In this document: one piece after another, positions 9,607 to 17,904 of the stretch
Numbering within the stretch: the stretch's first letter is position 1
Layout of the letters: every line of letters begins with the position of its first letter
Virus record (IMG/VR): IMGVR_UViG_3300046655_000331
Coordinates: 1-24,840 of that record
Strand: one strand, 5' to 3'
Source of the DNA: a virus
Length of the DNA stretch: 24,840 nt
Notes under the pieces: generated by a model
Seen by the model: only the letters and a program-made list of their open reading frames with translations
The model's database searches: none
Told to the model about the DNA's origin: nothing
Position numbers and translations under genes: made by a program

Positions 9607-9619
9607 AGTACAAAAATAT

Positions 9620-9647
9620 AAAAAAAAAGCCACCCGAATGGATGGCT
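9620..9647 (-). terminator. Rho-independent terminator between the 78-aa gene and terS
   Basis: Minus strand arms AGCCATCC (9640-9647) and GGGTGGCT (9628-9635) pair with one mismatch around a four-base loop and are followed by eight or nine T. This closes the single-gene unit started at the 9934 promoter region. Confidence 0.83.
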
Positions 9648-9671: not shown

Positions 9672-9908
9672 TTATTTATATTCCTTGAATTTAACAATGT
9701 GCAAATCAAAATCAGGGTTATGAGAAACAATGATCAAATCATTGCCATTCCTTGCAATTTTGAAATCATTATCAGTGTACATTCTGATTCGTGAATCAAT
9801 GTTTTTTTCAACATCATTGATTTTTTCAAGATCATACATTGATATAACATTTACCTTTTCACCTCCCTTGTAACTTTCCTGAATTGTGTAATATAATTGA
9901 GTTTTCAT
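9672..9908 (-). CDS. Hypothetical protein, 78 aa, single-gene unit
   Basis: Starts MKTQLYYTIQESYKGGEKVNVISMYDLEKI and ends 'NPDFDLHIVKFKEYK'. Alternating polar and hydrophobic residues suggest a small alpha/beta protein with a central charged helix (DLEKINDVEKNIDSRI) and two C-terminal strands (DLIIVSH, DLHIVKF). It has its own promoter with the shared operator-like motif (9934-9964) and its own terminator (9620-9647), between the methyltransferase and terS. This isolated unit looks like a moron or a regulatory/anti-host gene. No family is recognised. Confidence 0.72.
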   Translation of the reverse strand: MKTQLYYTIQESYKGGEKVNVISMYDLEKINDVEKNIDSRIRMYTDNDFKIARNGNDLIIVSHNPDFDLHIVKFKEYK

Positions 9909-9933: not shown

Positions 9934-9964
9934 CAAATATATGAGAAAAAATTCTTTCCCACAA
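9934..9964 (-). promoter_or_regulatory. Bacteroidota-type promoter with operator-like 14-bp motif (site B)
   Basis: Minus strand TATATTTG (9934-9941) matches TAnnTTTG. With a 19-base spacer the upstream box is TTGT (9961-9964), an imperfect TTTG. GAAAGAATTTTTTC (9945-9958) is identical to the motif at sites A and C. The 78-aa gene starts 26 bases downstream. Confidence 0.68.
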
Positions 9965-9987: not shown

Positions 9988-10024
9988 TAAAAAAAGGGGA
10001 GCGGATTTGACTGAATTACTCCCC
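9988..10024 (-). terminator. Rho-independent terminator after the ParB-methyltransferase gene
   Basis: Minus strand GGGGAG (10019-10024) and CTCCCC (9996-10001) pair around a 17-base loop and are followed by eight A's complement (T run, 9988-9995 on this strand). It ends the replication module transcript 14 bases past the gene stop. Confidence 0.8.
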
Positions 10025-10037
10025 TTAATAAAATGAT

Positions 10038-11141
10038 CTAATCACGATCATATTTTTTCCCATTTATTCTGATTTTTAAGTTTTCATCTAAATTCAACAT
10101 TCTATCAATTATCACCTGACAATACTTTGGATCAAGTTCCATTCCATAGCACACACGATCAATTTGATGTGCAGCAACCATTGTTGATCCCGATCCCATA
10201 AAAAAATCACAAATCAACTTTGATTCATTTTTAAATTTTTTAATTGACCAATTAATAAGTTCAATTGGTTTTTGTGTTGGATGAACTCGATTTCTTTTTT
10301 CCGATGCTTTTGTGAATTGCCTTACAACACTTCTTGCGTTTGACCATGCAAGTTCACAATCCGTTTGATCACTTTCCCCGTTGTTTTTATCCCATACAAT
10401 CCAACATTCAGAATCGGGTAAGCAACTTGAATAATAATTTGCACCCCACCAGATATGCAATGCATCAGGATATTCATTGAAAATTAAATTGAATGAATCT
10501 TTTGCTGCATCTGTATTATCATCCCCTAAAATATCGGAATCATAGTTTTTGCTTAATACACCGCTTTTTGAAACCGCATTCATTCCATAAGGAGGATCAG
10601 TGAAAACCATATCCGCTTTTTTGCCATCCATAAGTTTTGCAACCTGATCTGAATCCGTACTATCACCACATAGCAACCGATGGTTTCCGATTTCAATCAA
10701 ATCACCGAGTACAACATCAACCTTTAAATCATCTGGCTCCTCATAATCATCCTCCTCCGCTTCGGGATCGGCTTCAAATATATCAGGCAAATCCAAACCC
10801 CAATCATCGAGTACATTGGCATTCCATTCGTTTGCCAATATATCCCAATCCCATTCACCAAATCCAACATTGTCCTTGATGATGAATTCATTTTTCTGTT
10901 CAACACTCCATCCAGTCGCTTCATCAATCCATACTTCAAACAATCCTGCACTTTTACACGCTTTGAGGCGCATATTGCCACCCAATACAACCATATTTTC
11001 ATCAACAACGATTGGTCGCTTTTCAAGCATTTCAGGAAACTCCTTGATTGATTTTACTAACTTTTTAAATTTTGAATCCTTGATAAATCGTGGATTGTCG
11101 GGATTCGGTTTGATTGATGCGATGTTTACTTTACGCTTCAT
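10038..11141 (-). CDS. ParB/Spo0J-like nuclease domain fused to beta-class DNA methyltransferase
   Basis: 367 residues. The N-terminal ParB-like domain has 'IKPNPDNPRFI' (10-20), 'KRPIVVDENMVVLGGNMRLKACKSAG' (41-66) and the following helix. An acidic linker (EADPEAEEDDYEEPDD, 123-138) leads to the methyltransferase: motif IV DPPY at 182-185, 'HPTQKP' at 287-292, motif I 'FFMGSGST' at 313-320 and 'ELDPKY' at 335-340. DPPY before FxGxG means the beta class, probably N6-adenine. The region between motifs, which would read the target, is short (about 100 residues). Such fusions are common in phages, where they protect phage DNA from host restriction or alter regulation. Target site unknown. Confidence 0.92.
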   Translation of the reverse strand: MKRKVNIASIKPNPDNPRFIKDSKFKKLVKSIKEFPEMLEKRPIVVDENMVVLGGNMRLKACKSAGLFEVWIDEATGWSVEQKNEFIIKDNVGFGEWDWDILANEWNANVLDDWGLDLPDIFEADPEAEEDDYEEPDDLKVDVVLGDLIEIGNHRLLCGDSTDSDQVAKLMDGKKADMVFTDPPYGMNAVSKSGVLSKNYDSDILGDDNTDAAKDSFNLIFNEYPDALHIWWGANYYSSCLPDSECWIVWDKNNGESDQTDCELAWSNARSVVRQFTKASEKRNRVHPTQKPIELINWSIKKFKNESKLICDFFMGSGSTMVAAHQIDRVCYGMELDPKYCQVIIDRMLNLDENLKIRINGKKYDRD

Positions 11142-11301
11142 AAGAATACCAAATTATGTTGAAACCAAATAAAAACAAAAGTATTTGAATAACGTGTTCA
11201 CGCATCCCATCCGTGCGCTCCACTTCTTGAAGTTCATTATCAATGTAATTGATGCCAACTGTTATTCCGTAGATTGGAAAAAATGTGATTGCTAAATTCA
11301 T
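11131..11301 (-). CDS. Small membrane protein, 56 aa
   Basis: Starts MNLAITFFPIYGITVGINYI, a hydrophobic segment, then the charged loop DNELQEVERTDGMREH, then a second hydrophobic segment VIQILLFLFGFNIIWY. ATG 11301 overlaps the stop of the upstream gene (ATGA, 11298-11301) and is preferred to an upstream start at 11340 that would lie within that gene. Its end overlaps the methyltransferase start by 11 bases. Two membrane spans with a charged loop suggest a hairpin in the inner membrane. It is placed among DNA metabolism genes, so membrane tethering or host takeover are possible roles, both inference. Confidence 0.72.
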   Translation of the reverse strand: MNLAITFFPIYGITVGINYIDNELQEVERTDGMREHVIQILLFLFGFNIIWYSYEA

Positions 11302-11525
11302 CCCTTGTGTTTTTTGTAAAAGTACAAATATATTTCCCAAATCTTTTGATGCGCTTCATCAATTTTTTTGTATGCGTTTGGTGATTTGCGTTTTTTACCA
11401 TTGTGATCAAGCACAATCCAAAACTCATTTTTTCGTGGCACAACATATTGCTTGATGCCATTTTTGAAACACCAACTCATTGCCTTTTGCATTTCATCCG
11501 TTGGCACAAACTTGAATGGCTTCAT
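11298..11525 (-). CDS. Hypothetical protein, 75 aa, basic
   Basis: Starts MKPFKFVPTDEMQKAMSWCFKNGIKQYVV, then 'PRKNEFWIVLDHNGKKRKSPNAYKKIDEA' and a helix 'HQKIWEIYLYFYKKHKG'. A helix-strand-strand-helix layout with many Lys and aromatic residues suggests a small nucleic-acid- or protein-binding fold. It lies 33 bases after the primase-helicase stop, with a 14-bp perfect palindrome in the gap, and is coupled by ATGA to the next membrane gene. Family not recognised. Confidence 0.73.
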   Translation of the reverse strand: MKPFKFVPTDEMQKAMSWCFKNGIKQYVVPRKNEFWIVLDHNGKKRKSPNAYKKIDEAHQKIWEIYLYFYKKHKG

Positions 11526-11530
11526 AAAAA

Positions 11531-11544
11531 AATGTAATTACATT
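11531..11544. promoter_or_regulatory. 14-bp perfect palindrome AATGTAATTACATT between primase and the 75-aa gene
   Basis: This is a fully symmetric site in the only non-coding gap of this part of the operon, just 6 bases upstream of the next ATG. It could be a dimeric repressor site or a very short hairpin with a trailing T run. No loop is available, so a terminator is unlikely. Confidence 0.42.
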
Positions 11545-11558
11545 GTAGGTACATATTT

Positions 11559-13235
11559 TTAAAATGGAACGTTTGTATCTTTTATCACTTCAAATTTTTT
11601 GTTTTCAGCTTCAAGCGGTTTATAAACACCGCCATTTGTGAAATCTGGAGCAACTTCAAAATCCCCGAGTTGCCCGTTTTCCTTACGTTTTACCTTTTCA
11701 ATGTACAATCGCACCGCATCGGATTTGTATTTGGTTTTTTGCCCAATGCATCGATATACAACAATACCATTGTATGCCTTATTGAAAAAATCCGCACTCC
11801 CAGAAATATCATAAAGTGTTGGTTTTTTATATACACCCTCAACCGATTCAATTTTTCGTGGATGCGCCACCAAAAAAAGATGCGTGTTTGTTTGTTGGCA
11901 AAATTGCGTAATTTCTGAAAGCACCCTTCCAATGTAGCTGAAATCCCTTTGCGCTGAATGGTCAAGCATATTCCAAGGATCAATCACGCACACATTAATT
12001 CCCTTTTGAAATACCAATTCCCGAAACGCATCCAAAATTCCTTTCAATGTAAGATTTTCAAGGTCGATTTTTATCCAGAAAAAATGATCCTCAATGAAAT
12101 CCTTTGTGTTGTTTAAGTCATCGGAATCACATATTTTTTCATTTAGTTTGTTTGCAATCCTTTTGATATGCCCTTCATAGGGAAATGATTCGGGTGAAAA
12201 CATTGCACATCTAAAATCATATTTTGTTGCCAAGTTGCAAAGCACCTGATCCACAACATCCGATTTTCCCGAATTGGGAATTCCAGTGACAACGCTCCAT
12301 TCACCCATTGCAATTTTAAAATAGGAATCCGATTCACCCATTCCAAGTGAATAGTTTTTGATGCCCTTTTCGTTATATGAAAGCACATTATCCCAAATGT
12401 TGTTGATATTCAATACACCCTCCAAAGGGAAATTTTTCGCATTCTTGATAATGTTTCGCAGCGTTTCCGCTCCTTTTGAAATCAATACCTCATTTGCATC
12501 CTTGTAATTGCCAAACTCCACGTATTTGCACCTATAAGCACCAAACCGCCTTGATAATTCATTCCGCAGTTGCAAACCCGCATCATCATTATCAGTGCAA
12601 AGAATTATTTCTTTTTTGTTTTTAAAATACTCAAAGCAATTATCAAGATATTCAAGTTTTTGATTACCCTTTGATGCACCATTTGGAACGGAGCAAACGG
12701 AATATAAACCCGCCTCGTGTAATGAAAGCGCATCCATTTCGCCCTCAACAATGTAGCACGTTTCAACATCTTTCAAATTATCAATGCCATAAAATATCAA
12801 TTCAGCACCCGAAACAAGTTTGAAATTCTTTTCCGCATCCCTAAATTTTACGTTGATGAGTTCCTTGTTTCTAAAATAGTTGAAATTGATGCACCGCCTT
12901 TTCTTTTGCACTTGTGGCATATATTCAAGGGATTCACCAATTTTCCAATGCGCAATGGTTGGCTCAGTGATGCCTCTGGATGAAAACCATTCAATCACAC
13001 GATCATTCAAATCAACACTCACTTTTGGAGGTTTGATGTATTCTTTTTTCTTTTCAAATTTCACGCTCCCGCTCCATCCGCAGTTGTGGCAATTGTACAC
13101 ACCTTCATCAATCGTGACCGACAAACAAGGATCATTTTTCTTTTTGCGTGTGTGTGAGCATTTTGGACACGTTGTTTTTTCGTATCCTGATTGTTTTTTC
13201 AAGACAATTCCAAGGTTTTCAAGTTTCTGTTTCAT
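11559..13235 (-). CDS. Bifunctional DNA primase-helicase (T7 gp4-like)
   Basis: 558 residues. Zinc ribbon Cys23-Cys26 and Cys49-Cys52 ('CPKCSH', 'CHNCGW'). The TOPRIM domain has 'YIVEGEMDALSLHEAG' (161-176, Glu165) and 'ILCTDNDDAG' (211-220, Asp215 and Asp217). The RecA-like hexameric helicase has Walker A 'VVTGIPNSGKSD' (315-326), Walker B 'VCVIDPWNML' (415-424) and 'HLFLVAHPRK' (452-461). The protein would lay primers and unwind the fork ahead of a host or missing phage polymerase. It follows the initiator block (13852-14724) and the nuclease and membrane mini-gene. Domain order is complete and nothing appears broken. Confidence 0.95.
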   Translation of the reverse strand: MKQKLENLGIVLKKQSGYEKTTCPKCSHTRKKKNDPCLSVTIDEGVYNCHNCGWSGSVKFEKKKEYIKPPKVSVDLNDRVIEWFSSRGITEPTIAHWKIGESLEYMPQVQKKRRCINFNYFRNKELINVKFRDAEKNFKLVSGAELIFYGIDNLKDVETCYIVEGEMDALSLHEAGLYSVCSVPNGASKGNQKLEYLDNCFEYFKNKKEIILCTDNDDAGLQLRNELSRRFGAYRCKYVEFGNYKDANEVLISKGAETLRNIIKNAKNFPLEGVLNINNIWDNVLSYNEKGIKNYSLGMGESDSYFKIAMGEWSVVTGIPNSGKSDVVDQVLCNLATKYDFRCAMFSPESFPYEGHIKRIANKLNEKICDSDDLNNTKDFIEDHFFWIKIDLENLTLKGILDAFRELVFQKGINVCVIDPWNMLDHSAQRDFSYIGRVLSEITQFCQQTNTHLFLVAHPRKIESVEGVYKKPTLYDISGSADFFNKAYNGIVVYRCIGQKTKYKSDAVRLYIEKVKRKENGQLGDFEVAPDFTNGGVYKPLEAENKKFEVIKDTNVPF

Positions 13236-13239
13236 TTTG

Positions 13240-13353
13240 CTAACTTAAAAAATAATTTAATCCCATTATCATTATTTGAATTGTAATTGCATAAACAACC
13301 ACAAAATATATTCCCGCTTTCATTAGGAATTTTTGGTTTCTGTTTAGTTTCAT
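13240..13353 (-). CDS. Very small membrane protein, 37 aa
   Basis: Starts MKLNRNQKFLMKAG, then has one strong membrane span (IYFVVVYAITIQIMIMGL) and ends NYFLS. The basic N-terminus and single helix give an N-in topology. The ATG overlaps the stop of the upstream PD-(D/E)XK gene (ATGA, 13350-13353), and its stop is four bases before the primase-helicase start, so it fills the gap exactly. No function is assigned. The same design recurs at 2082-2350, 5546-5710 and 11131-11301. Confidence 0.63.
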   Translation of the reverse strand: MKLNRNQKFLMKAGIYFVVVYAITIQIMIMGLNYFLS

Positions 13354-13865
13354 ATTTTAGTTTTTAAAAAAATTAGTTCATCCATTGTAAGCATATCGTA
13401 AGTATTAAGCACATAAGACAAAACCCGAGTGTGCTTCAATCGTTTTTCATCGAAAACCATCCCATTGGTTGCAAACCCTCTGAATTGGAATGTTTTTTCA
13501 TCACCTTGAAAAAAAGCAAATATATCCACATTGCATTTTGAATACTCTGGAATCATCATTGGGTTTCGGATGTTGCGTGAACACTTTACATCAACGCTCC
13601 ATCCATTCCACGTGGCATCGTATTTATCCGTTCCTTTTATCTTTGAAGTGTTGCCAACACTAAAATCAGGCATCAAGTTCATTTCCCTACAAAATATGTA
13701 TTCCGCAGCAAAACCCGCATAATTGAGTTCTAAGCCACTTTTATCGCTCACAGTACCCAAACCATCAACTCGTGTGCGTTCCTTGTTTATTTGCCTTTGT
13801 TTTGCGTGAAAACGTATCAATTCGCTTTCCCACTCATCCAAAAAATAAAATTTATCCTTTTCCAT
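13350..13865 (-). CDS. PD-(D/E)XK nuclease-like protein
   Basis: 171 residues from ATG 13865 (a TTG three bases upstream is less likely). Motifs: 'LNYAGFAAEYIFCREMNLMPD' with Glu55, 'TDKYDATWNGWSVDVKCSR' with Asp83 or Asp92 and Lys94 (D-V-K). This E ... D-x-K layout, with hydrophobic strands around it, is that of restriction-like nucleases. The C-terminal part is helical (VLNTYDMLTMDELIF). It lies between the initiator and primase-helicase, overlapping the former by 14 bases, where a replication/recombination nuclease such as a resolvase would fit. Activity is not certain; it may be a DNA-end or branched-DNA cleaving enzyme. Confidence 0.72.
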   Translation of the reverse strand: MEKDKFYFLDEWESELIRFHAKQRQINKERTRVDGLGTVSDKSGLELNYAGFAAEYIFCREMNLMPDFSVGNTSKIKGTDKYDATWNGWSVDVKCSRNIRNPMMIPEYSKCNVDIFAFFQGDEKTFQFRGFATNGMVFDEKRLKHTRVLSYVLNTYDMLTMDELIFLKTKI

Positions 13866-14724
13866 CAAGATATTTTTTTAAATTCTCATATTCTTGTGTA
13901 CCAAGTTTGTACACCAATGCGAAATCATCCAATTCAGATTTTTTTGTGATTGCTCCAATCATTGGCTTTCCCGCAGGATCTTTGTATTGGTAAAACTTAA
14001 TAAGGTTTGGAATCATTTTGTACGCTTGTGGTTTGTTTGATTTTTGCATATCCATAAAGCGATGAATGTATAACGTGCCATTTTTATCCTTGTTCCGCAA
14101 TTTTAGTATTGAAAGGAAATTGCCACTCCAAAATTGATCCTCACGAAGTTTCTTTGCCATTTGATATACTTTTCGCAAATCGTATCCATCAATCCTTTCA
14201 ATGCGATCAAGGCATTCCGCCCACTTTAATTTTTGCGCATCGGTTGTTGGTTGATACTTTTTTGGGAACAACAAAATAAAATGCTGCAAAGCGGTTTCAA
14301 CGCTTTGTGGTATATTATTACTTTTATTATGATATTGTACATTGTCTTGTACATGATCTTGTATATATATATTACTTTGGTGCGGATTTCCCGCAGCGGT
14401 TTTTCCCGTAGCGGTTTTTTCCGCAATGGTTGGCACAATCAACCGAAAATTGTATCCTGAAAATTTTCCATTCTCACGCACCTCTTCACGTTTTAAAAAA
14501 CCAAGTGATTCCAATTCCTTTATTTTTGAAGTTATGGCATCTTTTCCATCCTTAAAATGCCCTTGAATGAATGCCATTGTCATTTTTTGTTTGGCATCGT
14601 GTGAAAATAGCCAACAATACAATCCAGATGCAGCCATTGTGATTCCCTTTTTTCTGAATATATCGGTCGGGATTACCGCAAACCTATCAAAATGATCAGG
14701 TTTGTAAATTCTATTTACAACCAT
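13852..14724 (-). CDS. Replication initiator protein (winged-helix N-domain, DnaD-like C-region)
   Basis: 290 residues. Residues 1-100 form a winged helix: 'FAVIPTDIFRKKGITMAASGLYCWLFSH', 'GHFKDGKDAITSKIKELESLGFLKREEVRENGKFSGYNFRLI'. This is the shape of phage replication initiators and RepA-like proteins. Residues about 105-135 are a low-complexity repeat linker encoded by two tandem arrays (see 14335-14370 and 14382-14422). Residues 145-230 are helical (TALQHFILLFPKKYQPT...WAECLDRIERIDGYDLRKVY...FWSGNFLSIL), as in helicase-loader C-domains. It likely binds the origin inside its own gene and recruits the primase-helicase, as lambda O does; this mechanism is inferred from the layout. Confidence 0.82.
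   Translation of the reverse strand: MVVNRIYKPDHFDRFAVIPTDIFRKKGITMAASGLYCWLFSHDAKQKMTMAFIQGHFKDGKDAITSKIKELESLGFLKREEVRENGKFSGYNFRLIVPTIAEKTATGKTAAGNPHQSNIYIQDHVQDNVQYHNKSNNIPQSVETALQHFILLFPKKYQPTTDAQKLKWAECLDRIERIDGYDLRKVYQMAKKLREDQFWSGNFLSILKLRNKDKNGTLYIHRFMDMQKSNKPQAYKMIPNLIKFYQYKDPAGKPMIGAITKKSELDDFALVYKLGTQEYENLKKYLDGKG
14335..14370. repeat. Three AT-rich 12-bp tandem units inside the initiator gene (origin candidate, AT arm)
   Basis: Plus strand units TTGTACATTGTC (14335-14346), TTGTACATGATC (14347-14358) and TTGTATATATAT (14359-14370) share TTGTA at a strict 12-bp spacing. AT-rich sequence continues on the left (14309-14334). They encode the four-residue repeat pattern YIQD-HVQD-NVQY. 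Such repeats beside an easily melted tract are typical of replication origins. Confidence 0.66.
14382..14422. repeat. 15-bp tandem units inside the initiator gene (iteron-like)
   Basis: Plus strand GCAGCGGTTTTTCCC (14393-14407) and GTAGCGGTTTTTTCC (14408-14422) differ at three positions. A partial copy GCGGATTTCCC (14382-14392) precedes them, and GCAATGGTTGGC follows. The spacing of 15 bp keeps the reading frame and gives five-residue protein repeats. The units lie 11 bp from the AT-rich array, in the linker of the initiator protein. Confidence 0.64.
14702..14720. promoter_or_regulatory. 19-bp perfect inverted repeat at the 5' end of the initiator gene
   Basis: TTGTAAAT and ATTTACAA (14702-14709 and 14713-14720) flank a three-base spacer, a perfect dyad. 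It covers codons 2-7 of the initiator gene. It could bind a dimeric regulator, such as the initiator itself, or form an mRNA hairpin over the start that limits translation. Confidence 0.5.
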
Positions 14725-14744
14725 TTTTTTCTGTTTCTAAATTA

Positions 14745-14987
14745 TCAATTCGTGATCTGTTTCAATTGATCACAAAATGTGCGGAGTTCACCAAACGTTT
14801 TGGCAAAATCCAAAAAAGTGATATTATTATCACCATACAATTCCCAAAGAATTTCAACAAGCAAATCAATTTCAACCCTTGACATTGTGCCAAGATATTC
14901 ATACGAAACCGCAAGATCCGAAGTGTTGTTCATTGTCCAACGCACCTTTTGATTTTCCTCGTCAAAATAAACTTTTCTATATTTCAT
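14745..14987 (-). CDS. Hypothetical protein, 80 aa
   Basis: From ATG 14987 (a TTG six bases earlier is less likely). Starts MKYRKVYFDEENQKVRWTMNN and continues into 'TMSRVEIDLLVEILWELYG' and 'TFLDFAKTFGELRTFCDQL'. It looks like two strands with a Phe-Asp-Glu-Glu turn, then two amphipathic helices, an alpha/beta layout of a small adaptor. It overlaps the VRR-NUC gene by 11 bases and precedes the initiator by 20 bases, so it belongs to the replication operon. No family recognised. Confidence 0.72.
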   Translation of the reverse strand: MKYRKVYFDEENQKVRWTMNNTSDLAVSYEYLGTMSRVEIDLLVEILWELYGDNNITFLDFAKTFGELRTFCDQLKQITN

Positions 14988-15387
14988 TATCAAAGTATTT
15001 TTTTATTACATCAACAACCTTTTCAAAATCATTGAGGCAATACGTTGCCCATCCTTTTGCATCCAAACGTTCAAGCCAAACAATTTGATTCTTTGTTGGT
15101 TTGTTATTTCCTGCCTTTAATTCAATTGCCAATCCATTGAATGAATCATTACAATCAAAAATCAATACATCTGGAATTCCTGATTTGCCACCAAGATATT
15201 TGAATTTAAACCGCTCAAATGGAGTGCGCCTCCCTTCATTGGGAACGTGCGCACACAATGCATCGGGATATTGAAATTCAATGAAATTCATCACCGAGTG
15301 TTGCAATTTATCCTCATTGCCTAAATACTTATGAAACCCCTTTGCCATTTTTGTTGCATTTTTAACAAAATTAGGAAAAAATATCAT
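14977..15387 (-). CDS. VRR-NUC domain nuclease
   Basis: 136 residues. 'NEDKLQHSVMNFIEFQYPDALCAHVPNEG' (24-52), then 'GGKSGIPDVLIF' with Asp73, 'LAIELKAG' with Glu89 and Lys91, and 'PTKNQIVWLERLDAKGW' with Gln101. This D...ExK...Q pattern and the 'GKPTKNQ' context are diagnostic of VRR-NUC, a structure-specific nuclease family with restriction-like fold, common in phages and active on branched or flap DNA. The start overlaps the DnaA-like gene stop by ATGA (15384-15387). A later Met at position 14 would remove a poorly conserved leader and is an alternative start. Confidence 0.9.
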   Translation of the reverse strand: MIFFPNFVKNATKMAKGFHKYLGNEDKLQHSVMNFIEFQYPDALCAHVPNEGRRTPFERFKFKYLGGKSGIPDVLIFDCNDSFNGLAIELKAGNNKPTKNQIVWLERLDAKGWATYCLNDFEKVVDVIKKYFDNEI

Positions 15388-15836
15388 TGAATTTGCATTT
15401 TTATTATTTGCATTCTCAATTCATCAATTTCATTTTCAAGATTTTGAATGTCTTTTAATGCATCCGCAAGTTGATGTGAAATTGATTTTCCATTGAATCT
15501 TGAAGGCATTTTCCTTGTACATCTAAAATCAACAATTGTTTTCAATGATTCAAAATTTTCCTTAAAATCAACATCAACCTCACAAAGTATTTTAAAGCGT
15601 TTTGTGCCATGCAATACAGTTGCGTGATCCTTTCCTACCGATTGCCCAATTTCATTCAAACTCATCCTTTGCATTCGGCAAATTTCGTAATACATATACC
15701 TTGCCTCAACAACTTCACGTTTTCTTGTTCGCCTTTCAATATCAATTTTGAAAAAATCCCATATTGATTTTTTTACAACATTGCGAATGTTAGCGTTTGC
15801 TATTTGTTTTTTAGATAATAATGCTCCCATCCTCAT
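15384..15836 (-). CDS. DnaA domain IV-like DNA-binding protein
   Basis: About 150 residues from ATG 15836. An upstream ATG at 15950 would overlap the exonuclease gene by 140 bases, which is unlikely; ATG 15830 is also possible. The core 'RRTRKREVVEARYMYYEICRMQRMSLNEIGQSVGKDHATVLHGTKRFKIL' matches the DnaA C-terminal helix-turn-helix: basic 'R..Rk..v.aR...y', then 'sl.eIG...g.dHaTVlh...ki', the DnaA-box signature. No AAA+ ATPase domain is present, so the protein can bind DnaA-box-like DNA but not melt it alone. It may guide the phage initiator or block host DnaA at its boxes; both are inferences. The C-terminal tail (LADALKDIQNLENEIDELRMQIIKMQIQ) is a coiled coil. Confidence 0.82.
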   Translation of the reverse strand: MRMGALLSKKQIANANIRNVVKKSIWDFFKIDIERRTRKREVVEARYMYYEICRMQRMSLNEIGQSVGKDHATVLHGTKRFKILCEVDVDFKENFESLKTIVDFRCTRKMPSRFNGKSISHQLADALKDIQNLENEIDELRMQIIKMQIQ

Positions 15837-16590
15837 TGCGATTTGTTGAATCATATCCCAGTGCAACATCGGTTTCCTTGTAGAATTTCCAATTGTCAAG
15901 TGCCTGTTTGTATCCCATTTTGTATGCGTTGCCATTGCGCCCAAGTTCAATCATTTCATCACTCAATCCATACACTTCAATCGAAAATGGATGATTGGTT
16001 TCAACCGCAATGAAACGGAATTCTTTTGGATCAAATCCCAATGCATCACAATAGAATGCCGCCTGAATATCGTATCTATATTTAAGCACATCCAATCTAA
16101 ATTTTTCGGGTGAATTATCTTGACACGTTTTTACATCCGAAATCCATCCCGAAATTGAGTTTTTACAATCAGGTCGAACACGAATATCAGCACCATCCAT
16201 TTGCCCATAATGTGAAACCTCAATTTCACCATTGCAATACTTTTGCGCTAATTCATTATTTTTTAGGTTTTCCATAATGGTTTTGATGCGCTCGTGATCG
16301 TATTCATCCAATACAATTTTTCCCTTTGCATTTTCAATGTGTTGCGCTTTCAATGCTTTGCCCTCTTTTGTGCGCCCATCAACCTTTGGCATAATGTAAT
16401 AATCATTGTAAAATTGATCACTTTCAAGCATTGCAGTATGTACCGCAGTTCCAAATTTCATTGCATCGGTTTCTTTGAAATTAGCATTCAAATAATGTTT
16501 AACCGATTTTTTTGCAATCATTTTTAATCCTGATGCACTGATGGATTTTTTGGAGTGATATTCCTCGTTTGTATCTTTAATCTGTTTCAT
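15811..16590 (-). CDS. RecE/YqaJ-like 5'-3' exonuclease, PD-(D/E)XK (PDDEXK_1, DUF3799-like)
   Basis: 259 residues. Motifs: 'SISASGLKMIAKKSVKHYL' (16-34), 'KFGTAVHTAMLES' (45-57), Glu124 in 'EIEVSHYG', 'RVRPDCK' (137-143, Asp141), 'WISDVKTCQDNSP' (149-161, Asp152 and Lys154) and 'YRYDIQAAFYCDAL' (171-184). This is the phage exonuclease that resects double-stranded ends and hands single strands to the annealing protein. An ERF annealing protein lies upstream at 17132-17629 with two small genes between, so the two form a phage recombination pair. Overlaps the DnaA-like gene by about 26 bases. Confidence 0.9.
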   Translation of the reverse strand: MKQIKDTNEEYHSKKSISASGLKMIAKKSVKHYLNANFKETDAMKFGTAVHTAMLESDQFYNDYYIMPKVDGRTKEGKALKAQHIENAKGKIVLDEYDHERIKTIMENLKNNELAQKYCNGEIEVSHYGQMDGADIRVRPDCKNSISGWISDVKTCQDNSPEKFRLDVLKYRYDIQAAFYCDALGFDPKEFRFIAVETNHPFSIEVYGLSDEMIELGRNGNAYKMGYKQALDNWKFYKETDVALGYDSTNRNEDGSIII

Positions 16591-16598
16591 TTTTTCTT

Positions 16599-16817
16599 TT
16601 ATTTGCTATATTCATCTTTATTTAAAACATATCTTTTTGGGAATTCTGTTTGGTAATAATCCCATATATAATCAATTTCGTGATGTACTTTTTCAAGAAT
16701 TTTTTTTTCCTCACCATAAACCGATTCAGCGTTGGAATACATTTTGTATTCCCTATCAATAATGTGCATTCTTTCACAAACTAAATTGTGTATATATTCT
16801 AAAGTTTCAATTTTCAT
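16599..16817 (-). CDS. Hypothetical protein, 72 aa, helical
   Basis: The ATG at 16817 is preferred; an upstream TTG at 16853 falls within the terminator hairpin. Starts MKIETLEYIHNLVCERMHIIDREY and continues 'MYSNAESVYGEEKKILEKVHHEIDYIWDYYQTEF'. It is almost all helix with regular hydrophobic spacing, so a helical hairpin is likely. It lies eight bases before the exonuclease gene and 20 bases after terminator 16837-16865. No family recognised; a partner of the exonuclease is possible by position only. Confidence 0.68.
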   Translation of the reverse strand: MKIETLEYIHNLVCERMHIIDREYKMYSNAESVYGEEKKILEKVHHEIDYIWDYYQTEFPKRYVLNKDEYSK

Positions 16818-16836
16818 TCTTTCTGTTTTAACTAAT

Positions 16837-16865
16837 AAAAAAGGGAGCAGCAAAATGCCACTCCC
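16837..16865 (-). terminator. Rho-independent terminator after the SSB-like gene (partial, operon-internal)
   Basis: Minus strand GGGAG and CTCCC arms (16861-16865 and 16843-16847), with an inner GC pairing, are followed by six T (16837-16842). It lies inside the replication module, so it probably lowers rather than stops expression of genes from 16817 on; earlier genes (HTH, ERF, SSB-like) would be made in excess. Confidence 0.72.
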
Positions 16866-16874
16866 ATTGCTTGA

Positions 16875-17129
16875 CTACCAAGGCAAATCGCTTTCCCCTT
16901 GCGCTACTTTTTGTACTTTACCATCTGGCTGCCAAGTGTTTAATTCAGCGTACATTTTCCCGCTTTGTGCGGTTTTTACATCAAGATTGATCCATCCATT
17001 GTTTGCGTTTTCCTTTACAAACTTTCCGAATTCATCAACTTTGATTGATACATTTGCCACCACGAAATCGGGTGCGCCTTCTCTACGTTTCACAATGAAA
17101 CCATCTGGGAATTTTTTTTTATTTTCCAT
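16875..17129 (-). CDS. Small protein with SSB-like acidic tip, candidate ssDNA-binding protein (84 aa)
   Basis: Starts MENKKKFPDGFIVKRREGAP, with strands 'FVVANVSIKVDEFGKFV', 'GWINLDVKTAQSGKMYAELNTWQP' and the C-terminus 'GESDLPW'. The last six residues resemble the acidic-aromatic tip (D-D-I-P-F type) with which bacterial SSB recruits partners. Position right after the ERF gene (two bases between stop 17132 and start 17129) also fits. It is short for an OB-fold SSB (usually above 110 aa), with a plausible beta-barrel core of about 70 residues. Real ssDNA binding is not shown; an alternative is a recombination mediator or decoy of SSB partners. Confidence 0.72.
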   Translation of the reverse strand: MENKKKFPDGFIVKRREGAPDFVVANVSIKVDEFGKFVKENANNGWINLDVKTAQSGKMYAELNTWQPDGKVQKVAQGESDLPW

Positions 17130-17131
17130 TT

Positions 17132-17629
17132 TTATATATTGAATTTTGATTTTATTAAATATAACTCATTATCGGATAAATCCGCATTTTTGATTGCCTT
17201 GAGTGCAGTTTGTCGATCTGATTTCATCACAACTCCAAATTGCTCACTTGTCAATTTTGGCTTCATTCCTGATGCCATATTACCATCATCATCCTCCGCT
17301 TGTAGTGAAAGTAATGATTGCAATGTGTACCGCCTGAAATACGTAATTGCTGATCCGAGTTTCTGTGGATCATTTATTTCAGGAAGTTTTACTCCACTTT
17401 CAATGGAGTTTTTTCCATCACTAATCACGCTGCAAACTTCACCATTTTTGATGGGTTGCAATAGCGTGAGTTCGTGTTTGTTTAGTATTGGCAACACCTC
17501 CCGAATCAAAACATTTATATCAAAATACTTTGATTTGAAAAAAGGATTTGTTGCTGATTTTGAAATCGCTCCGATTTCGTTTTGCACTTTTAAAAGTTTT
17601 TCGTGCAAATTGTTTTCTGTTTCTACCAT
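17132..17629 (-). CDS. ERF-family single-strand annealing recombinase
   Basis: 165 residues. N-terminal helix 'LHEKLLKVQNEIGAISKSATNPFFKSKYFDINVLIREVLPILNKHELTLLQ' (8-58), then 'LGSAITYFRRYTLQSLLSLQAEDDDGN' (91-117). The family pattern is N-x-x-fkskYa.l......l.p.l...g, then GSa.tY.rRY.l....gi..e.DDDG. ERF proteins anneal complementary strands and circularise or repair phage DNA. The C-terminal tail (SEQFGVVMKSDRQTALKAI...) is helical. It starts four bases after the stop of the HTH gene, and the SSB-like gene starts just after its stop. Confidence 0.93.
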   Translation of the reverse strand: MVETENNLHEKLLKVQNEIGAISKSATNPFFKSKYFDINVLIREVLPILNKHELTLLQPIKNGEVCSVISDGKNSIESGVKLPEINDPQKLGSAITYFRRYTLQSLLSLQAEDDDGNMASGMKPKLTSEQFGVVMKSDRQTALKAIKNADLSDNELYLIKSKFNI

Positions 17630-17633
17630 TGTT

Positions 17634-17819
17634 TTAAATTAAACGATTAAGATCAAACCCCAACGATTGGAGTTTTTTGATTTCATCCACCTGAAAAGTA
17701 CCGCAATTGTTCACCCTTGATCGAAGTGTTGGGATTGTCATATCTAACGCTTGACAAACCTTTTTTCGTGTGAGTTCCAATCGCTCCAATTCGGAGTTGA
17801 AATGTTTATTAAATTCCAT
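17634..17819 (-). CDS. Small helix-turn-helix DNA-binding protein, Cro-like, 61 aa
   Basis: Starts MEFNKHFNSELERLELTRKKVCQALDM and continues 'TIPTLRSRVNNCGTFQVDEIKKLQSLGFDLNRLI'. 'TRKKVCQALDMTIPTLRSRV' fits the helix-turn-helix of XRE/Cro proteins: helix 2, a turn with M-T, then the recognition helix 'IPTLRSRV'. Cro-sized and first in the early operon, directly after promoter region A (17840-17870), it may repress its own promoter and the two matching sites B and C. This link is inference from the shared 14-bp motif; direct binding is untested. Confidence 0.82.
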   Translation of the reverse strand: MEFNKHFNSELERLELTRKKVCQALDMTIPTLRSRVNNCGTFQVDEIKKLQSLGFDLNRLI

Positions 17820-17839
17820 ATTGAAAAAATTTATTTTCG

Positions 17840-17870
17840 CTAATATAGAAAAAATTCTTTCTAAAAAGAA
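17840..17870 (-). promoter_or_regulatory. Probable promoter with operator-like 14-bp motif (site A)
   Basis: GAAAGAATTTTTTC on the minus strand (17848-17861) is identical to the motif at sites B and C. It directly abuts TATATTAG (17840-17847), a TAnnTTTG box with one mismatch. No good TTTG is seen at 19 bases, so activator help or a weaker promoter is possible. It lies 20 bases upstream of the HTH gene and overlaps the end of the tail module terminator. Confidence 0.58.
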
Positions 17871-17904
17871 ACCCCAAGCAAAAAAAATTCACTCGAGGTT
17901 TCGG
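17862..17904 (-). terminator. Rho-independent terminator of the tail module
   Basis: Minus strand GAAACC (17897-17902) and GGTTTC (17868-17873) arms pair around a 23-base loop, with a T-rich tail (CTTTTTAG) after it. It separates the tail genes from the early promoter A. Confidence 0.62.

Follow-up and report, generated by a model that had tools for sequence, protein, structure and literature searches.

A 14-bp dyad shared by three promoters and its candidate repressor in an uncultured clade of Bacteroidota phages

Three promoters of a phage that infects marine Bacteroidota bacteria share an identical 14-bp dyad (GAAAGAATTTTTTC on the coding strand), and we consider it likely that this sequence is the operator of an early-gene repressor under autoregulation that turns off two accessory-gene slots along with the operon in which it is encoded. 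The copies, designated A, B and C in order of position, lie inside promoters, are conserved in related phages and are absent from structural promoters. A small protein with a predicted HTH fold is encoded directly behind copy C, and the small genes behind copies A and B are exchanged between phages. The clade to which the record belongs is undescribed and uncultured.

The 14-bp site and its promoters

The sequence GAAAAAATTCTTTC occurs on the plus strand at 2600-2613 (A), 9945-9958 (B) and 17848-17861 (C). There are no further copies in the record, whose 24,840 bp were analyzed in full and are referred to here as the window. All three copies reported in the initial annotation were thus recovered. 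Every called gene of the record is on the minus strand, and on this coding strand the site reads GAAAGAATTTTTTC, a dyad in which six of the seven pairs are symmetric and one is asymmetric, in agreement with its earlier description as nearly a palindrome. In a 14-mer count, no other 14-mer reached three or more copies in the window. When sequences were generated from the window statistics with Markov models of order 1-4, the mean number of exact copies expected by chance was 0-0.01 per sequence, and none of the sequences contained two. For a palindrome with at most one mismatch accompanied by a -7 box, the chance expectation was 0-0.025 per window. The motif count at three mismatches did not rise above the shuffled background (20 in the window versus 17 in shuffles), and therefore only near-exact copies were treated as meaningful.

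The Bacteroidota promoter consensus is TTTG/TAnnTTTG (PMC6847099, PMC2483708). Every copy of the site was found between a -33 element and a -7 box of this kind, behind a terminator-like hairpin and at the head of a minus-strand unit; the initial annotation had placed all three just upstream of a -7 box and in front of a transcription unit. The distance to the -7 box, given earlier as 0-3 bases, is 1 bp (A), 3 bp (B) and 0 bp (C). Since the spacers are only 19-20 bp long, the site takes up most of the gap between -33 and -7. Promoter A reads TTTG-GAGG-site-C-TATCTTTG (TTTG-N19), with the -33 TTTG at 2618-2621 and the -7 box TATCTTTG at 2591-2598 (all window features located in this section are on the minus strand). 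Upstream of it is the terminator of the capsid unit (2651-2676), and behind it, as an insertion ahead of conserved small genes, lies a 66-aa gene (2362-2562), the exchangeable cargo of slot A. Promoter B reads TTG-TGG-site-TCA-TATATTTG (TTG-N20), with the -33 TTG at 9962-9964 and the -7 box TATATTTG at 9934-9941. A terminator-like hairpin with a long loop (9995-10024) is located upstream, and the 78-aa gene behind promoter B (9672-9908), the exchangeable cargo of slot B, is followed by a terminator that closes the slot (9628-9647) and then by the motif-free promoter of the small terminase gene.

Promoter C, which reads TTTC-TTTTTA-site-TATATTAG, has a weak -33 element (TTTC-N20, at 17868-17871) and an imperfect -7 box (TATATTAG, 17840-17847), one base off TAnnTTTG. 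The intrinsic terminator of the upstream unit (17868-17902) immediately precedes this promoter. A possible second, degenerate operator, GAAAATAAATTTTTTC (17823-17838), tentatively assigned, was observed downstream of the -7 box and is identical in most close relatives. The first gene of the early operon behind promoter C (17634-17819) encodes a 61-aa lambda/434-repressor-like HTH protein, the proposed regulator. The remaining operon (10038-17629) encodes an Erf-like annealing protein, a DnaA-domain-IV protein, a replication initiation protein, a Toprim/DnaB primase-helicase and a ParB/N6-N4 methyltransferase. The product of 15384-15836 in this replication operon is a DnaA domain IV-like HTH protein (Bac_DnaA_C, E = 4e-11) with no ATPase domain and may be a DnaA-box binder or mimic.

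The 14-bp site is absent at the promoter-like -7 boxes of the structural genes at 1442, 4637, 8092, 9618, 22410 and 23643. Several structural-gene promoters (9607-9633 and 1420-1442) are fused to the preceding terminator, with the -7 box right after the T-run, and equivalents were found in the related phages G010, G012, G015 and G016. The distance from such -7 boxes to the ATG can be as little as 4-15 nt, from which mRNAs with a very short leader or none are predicted. A scan for sigma-70-type promoters gave no excess over shuffles; this consensus is the wrong one for the phylum. A PDDEXK_5 endonuclease (E = 1e-15) is encoded at 1500-1898, just downstream of slot A, with an uncertain start (TTG, called at 1898). 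The endonuclease is kept in distant relatives, where it lies behind its own terminator-fused promoter.

Conservation of the site and exchange of the genes behind it

Relatives of the HTH protein and of the terminase were collected from IMG/VR, and the three sites were found at the same places in related phages. G001, G002 and G003 carry all three, one of those in G003 with one mismatch, and reversed-pattern controls gave zero matches in the three genomes. G001 (L012/L026, IMGVR_UViG_3300048065_000444, 30,647 bp) is complete, as judged from its terminal direct repeat of ~266 bp, a repeat that includes operator C and the beginning of the HTH gene; the size of the complete genome is ~30.4 kb. It contains exactly three palindromes, all at promoters, in addition to the terminal-repeat copy of C. 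The initial annotation had named the absence of further copies away from promoters as support for its proposal, and this was found both in the window and in the complete G001.

The mean identity of the motif was 0.96 (A), 0.995 (B) and 0.985 (C). Downstream of the -7 box, the corresponding values were 0.65, 0.79 and 0.90; at C, the entire promoter is well kept and not the motif alone. In G005, whose HTH protein is 56% identical, site C is a perfect palindrome, GAAAAAATTTTTTC, and one variant, GAAAAAATCTTTTC, is common to A and B. In ten more distant phages, the motif scores at the slot and HTH promoters were 9.44, 9.6 and 9.33 out of 12 versus 7.42 at structural promoters (p = 7e-7, Mann-Whitney, on rows that are not independent because the phages are related), and most individual sites were without significance against shuffles. 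Promoters of F. johnsoniae favor A/T near -18 and -28 (PMC6847099). Because the motif is A/T-rich, its similarity in distant clades may partly reflect this promoter preference. In a distant relative (L147/G016), two tandem copies of AAAAAATTCTTTTA were found in the region ahead of the slot-B gene (L147:8575-8643), and the same word occurs at the slot-A promoter, at a greater distance upstream of the -7 box.

When all viral contigs were scanned for the palindrome with a -7 box, 104 stretches were returned, and every locus with two or more matches falls within this clade. Two of 199 Flavobacteriaceae genomes contained a single match, which does not exceed the reversed control. Since this is background, the site is a phage element, and the alternative of a host promoter element was rejected.

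Unexpectedly, and beyond what the initial annotation had noticed, the promoter and operator are retained at A and B while the gene behind them is exchangeable. Among close phages, whose terminases are mostly 91-96% identical, the first gene of slot B falls into 10 unrelated families (54-183 aa) in the 16 contigs with site B. The first gene of slot A falls into 11 families (38-98 aa) in 24 contigs, counted as those with site A and a readable first gene. In L126/L131, slot A is apparently empty, and the small gene that normally comes after the cargo follows straight after the promoter. More distant clades share cargo families at the corresponding slot (L117 with G011), and the slot-B protein of G005 resembles that of G007. 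A GGGGAGGGCAACCTCCCC hairpin without a T-run was observed between the slot-A cargo and the next gene in many relatives, including L084, L088, L099, L134 and L055. Ten cargo proteins searched against Pfam and PHROGs gave weak or uninformative matches and no family with a clear function, and no known anti-CRISPR was found among the cargo. The cargo genes probably serve host-specific early functions such as counter-defence.

The 61-aa HTH protein and the proposed shut-off

The initial annotation had placed the gene of a Cro-like HTH protein just after its copy A. The gene does follow one of the copies, that at 17848, which is labeled C here and was presumably the A of that annotation. An AlphaFold model of the 61-aa protein shows a four-helix HTH (pLDDT 90; helices 2-14, 18-25, 29-37 and 44-52). 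The model aligns over 58-61 residues with 434 repressor, 434 Cro and P22 c2 at VIA Z 6.8-7.1, a moderate indication by itself of a lambda-repressor-like fold; any small helical HTH may reach values of about 7. The protein matches no HTH family in Pfam or PHROGs, and the best PDB sequence match is weak (the Bacteroides HTH_XRE protein 2k9q, E = 0.13). No protein of the recognizable Cro/CI sequence family (HTH_3) was found in 14 related records. Eight diverged homologues all retain T31, R35 and N38, residues that lie within the predicted recognition helix or adjacent to it. Viral contigs contained at least 143 relatives; their genes usually open the early operon and come right after a terminator and an A/T-rich promoter, but some clades deviate from this. 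None was found in 50,697 phage records. Three MAG contigs also encode relatives, and those labeled Rhodobiaceae and Woesearchaeota are probably phage contigs put in the wrong bin.

As in repressors of the lambda/434 type, a short operator-like dyad lies in the promoter of the protein's own gene (copy C), and this dyad is a perfect palindrome in several relatives. P22 and 434 repressors read the A-tract centers of their operators by indirect readout (PMC3317979), which would suit a site of the form GAAA-(A/T-rich center)-TTTC. The most likely function of the 14-bp site is to serve as the operator of the 61-aa protein, whose gene comes straight after the copy at 17848, and we regard this protein as the probable binder of the dyad. 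In the close clade, the HTH protein and the motif vary too little to prove co-variation. Across clades, residue 33 of the recognition helix (R in the close clade, K in many distant phages) was compared with the end pairs of the operator (G-C versus A-T), and the pattern was suggestive but not clean. We make no claim of co-variation, since G is retained at one operator end in two K33 phages, G015 and G016.

It is unlikely that the site is instead the operator of another protein, either a host regulator or a phage DNA-binder such as the DnaA-domain-IV protein of the same operon. Such an arrangement would be compatible with the presence of this second phage DNA-binding protein (Bac_DnaA_C), and binding by the HTH protein is itself deduced from sequence and a structural model. 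However, the palindrome with a -7 box is found in host-family genomes only at the reversed-control level noted above, the HTH_3 search of the relatives gives no other repressor, and copy C is directly ahead of the HTH gene in relatives.

In the reading that we prefer, with the 61-aa protein as the regulator, host RNA polymerase of the sigma-ABfr type would transcribe promoters A, B and C together at infection. As the 61-aa protein accumulates, a dimer would take the 14-bp dyad between -33 and -7 and block the polymerase, so that the protein's own early/replication operon (C) and the accessory units A and B would be shut off. The motif-free packaging, head and tail promoters would remain on. 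A and B would act as standing expression slots, in which the regulated promoter stays while the small gene behind it is swapped between phages. The units behind all three promoters are presumed to be expressed early.

Repression rather than activation is the likely effect at the three promoters. The position of the site in the spacer would serve either outcome, and an activator site or promoter element that boosts early transcription, with the HTH protein or a host factor remodeling the 19-20-bp spacer to turn the units on, would fit promoter C, which has neither a good -33 element nor a perfect -7 box. On the other hand, A and B have good -33 and -7 elements and should therefore need no activator, and small HTH proteins that regulate themselves through a core-promoter dyad, for example those of the Aca families, are repressors (PMC9410906); we judge activation to be improbable. 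Very improbable is a duplicated promoter cassette or a chance A/T-rich similarity without any regulator. All three sites are indeed A/T-rich promoter spacers, and the motif is preceded by GG at both A and B. However, the 14 bp stay identical among A, B and C although the flanks, the -7 spacing (0, 1 and 3 bp) and the -33 elements differ, and exact copies are not expected by Markov chance. In addition, relatives preserve the motif at A and B better than the sequence around it, and the structural promoters in these genomes do not contain it.

The earlier proposal of a three-site phage regulon under one regulator is supported by the conserved sites, the predicted Cro-like fold of the 61-aa protein, the structural promoters without the site and its near-absence from the host family. 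Neither a tyrosine integrase, a serine recombinase nor an HTH_3 protein was found in the 14 related records, which speaks for a virulent life style and for a Cro-like rather than a CI-like role of the HTH protein. The divergent cI and integrase of a bistable lysis/lysogeny switch are missing, and all called genes of the window are on one strand. A lysogeny regulon was rejected on the lack of an integrase and of a second repressor in the related records.

Searches of the PMC literature returned no described operator or repressor for phages that use the Bacteroidota TTTG/TAnnTTTG promoter. If our reading is right, a phage regulon is readable from sequence alone in an uncultured clade, the shared operator provides a handle for retrieving small, uncharacterized early-type accessory genes, and the compact repressor/operator pair becomes available for Bacteroidota genetics. 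A promoter-based search in archaeal viruses has led to new anti-defence genes (PMC11065993). Only tentatively do we suggest that the clade holds a hitherto unknown regulon of exchangeable counter-defence genes, kept in two fixed slots under one miniature repressor that acts after the first minutes. Were this true, the 21 unrelated first genes, and others found by operator scan, would be new anti-defence proteins.

Comparison with known regulatory systems

In mycobacteriophage stoperator systems, one repressor acts on several dispersed identical sites, which are numerous, asymmetric and genome-wide and stop elongation (PMC9283540, PMC6550527). By contrast, exactly three symmetric sites, at promoters only, were found in the window and in the complete G001, and since the sites are few, symmetric and promoter-confined, this is not a stoperator system. 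The start-associated sequences (SAS) of cluster K mycobacteriophages are short sequences before many variable small genes, with extended versions that have inverted repeats (PMC3203893). The parallel to these is looser: SAS go with translation starts (PMC3203893), whereas the site described here precedes the RNA start and occupies the promoter spacer.

The predicted fold, the short A/T-centered dyad operators and the small repressor heading an early operon resemble Cro and CI of 434, P22 and lambda. Unlike in those phages, no divergent cI, integrase, immunity region or detectable sequence family match was found, and the operators are dispersed across half the genome. With integrase and divergent repressor missing, this is not a lambda-type immunity switch. 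Aca proteins are small HTH proteins with an inverted repeat in the core promoter, sometimes a second repeat beside it, and variable small genes behind (PMC9410906). An HTH protein and an inverted repeat inside the core promoter are likewise found here. However, acr genes share an operon with aca, whereas the HTH gene of this phage heads the replication operon and is separated from the slots by ~8 and 15 kb. With its HTH gene outside the cargo operons, the system is not an acr-aca operon as defined.

In the archaeal virus SIRV2, the regulator gene (Aca8) and many variable small early genes share one regulatory sequence, and the regulator is proposed to shut them off (PMC11065993). SIRV2 differs in having archaeal BRE/TATA promoters, a winged-HTH regulator, known anti-CRISPR targets and measured early expression (PMC11065993), whereas the present system belongs to a tailed Bacteroidota phage, comprises three sites without a known anti-CRISPR and is described here from its sequence. 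Both have one conserved regulatory sequence ahead of variable small genes and of the HTH regulator's own gene (PMC11065993), and the control proposed here resembles that of SIRV2 even more closely than that by the Aca repressors.
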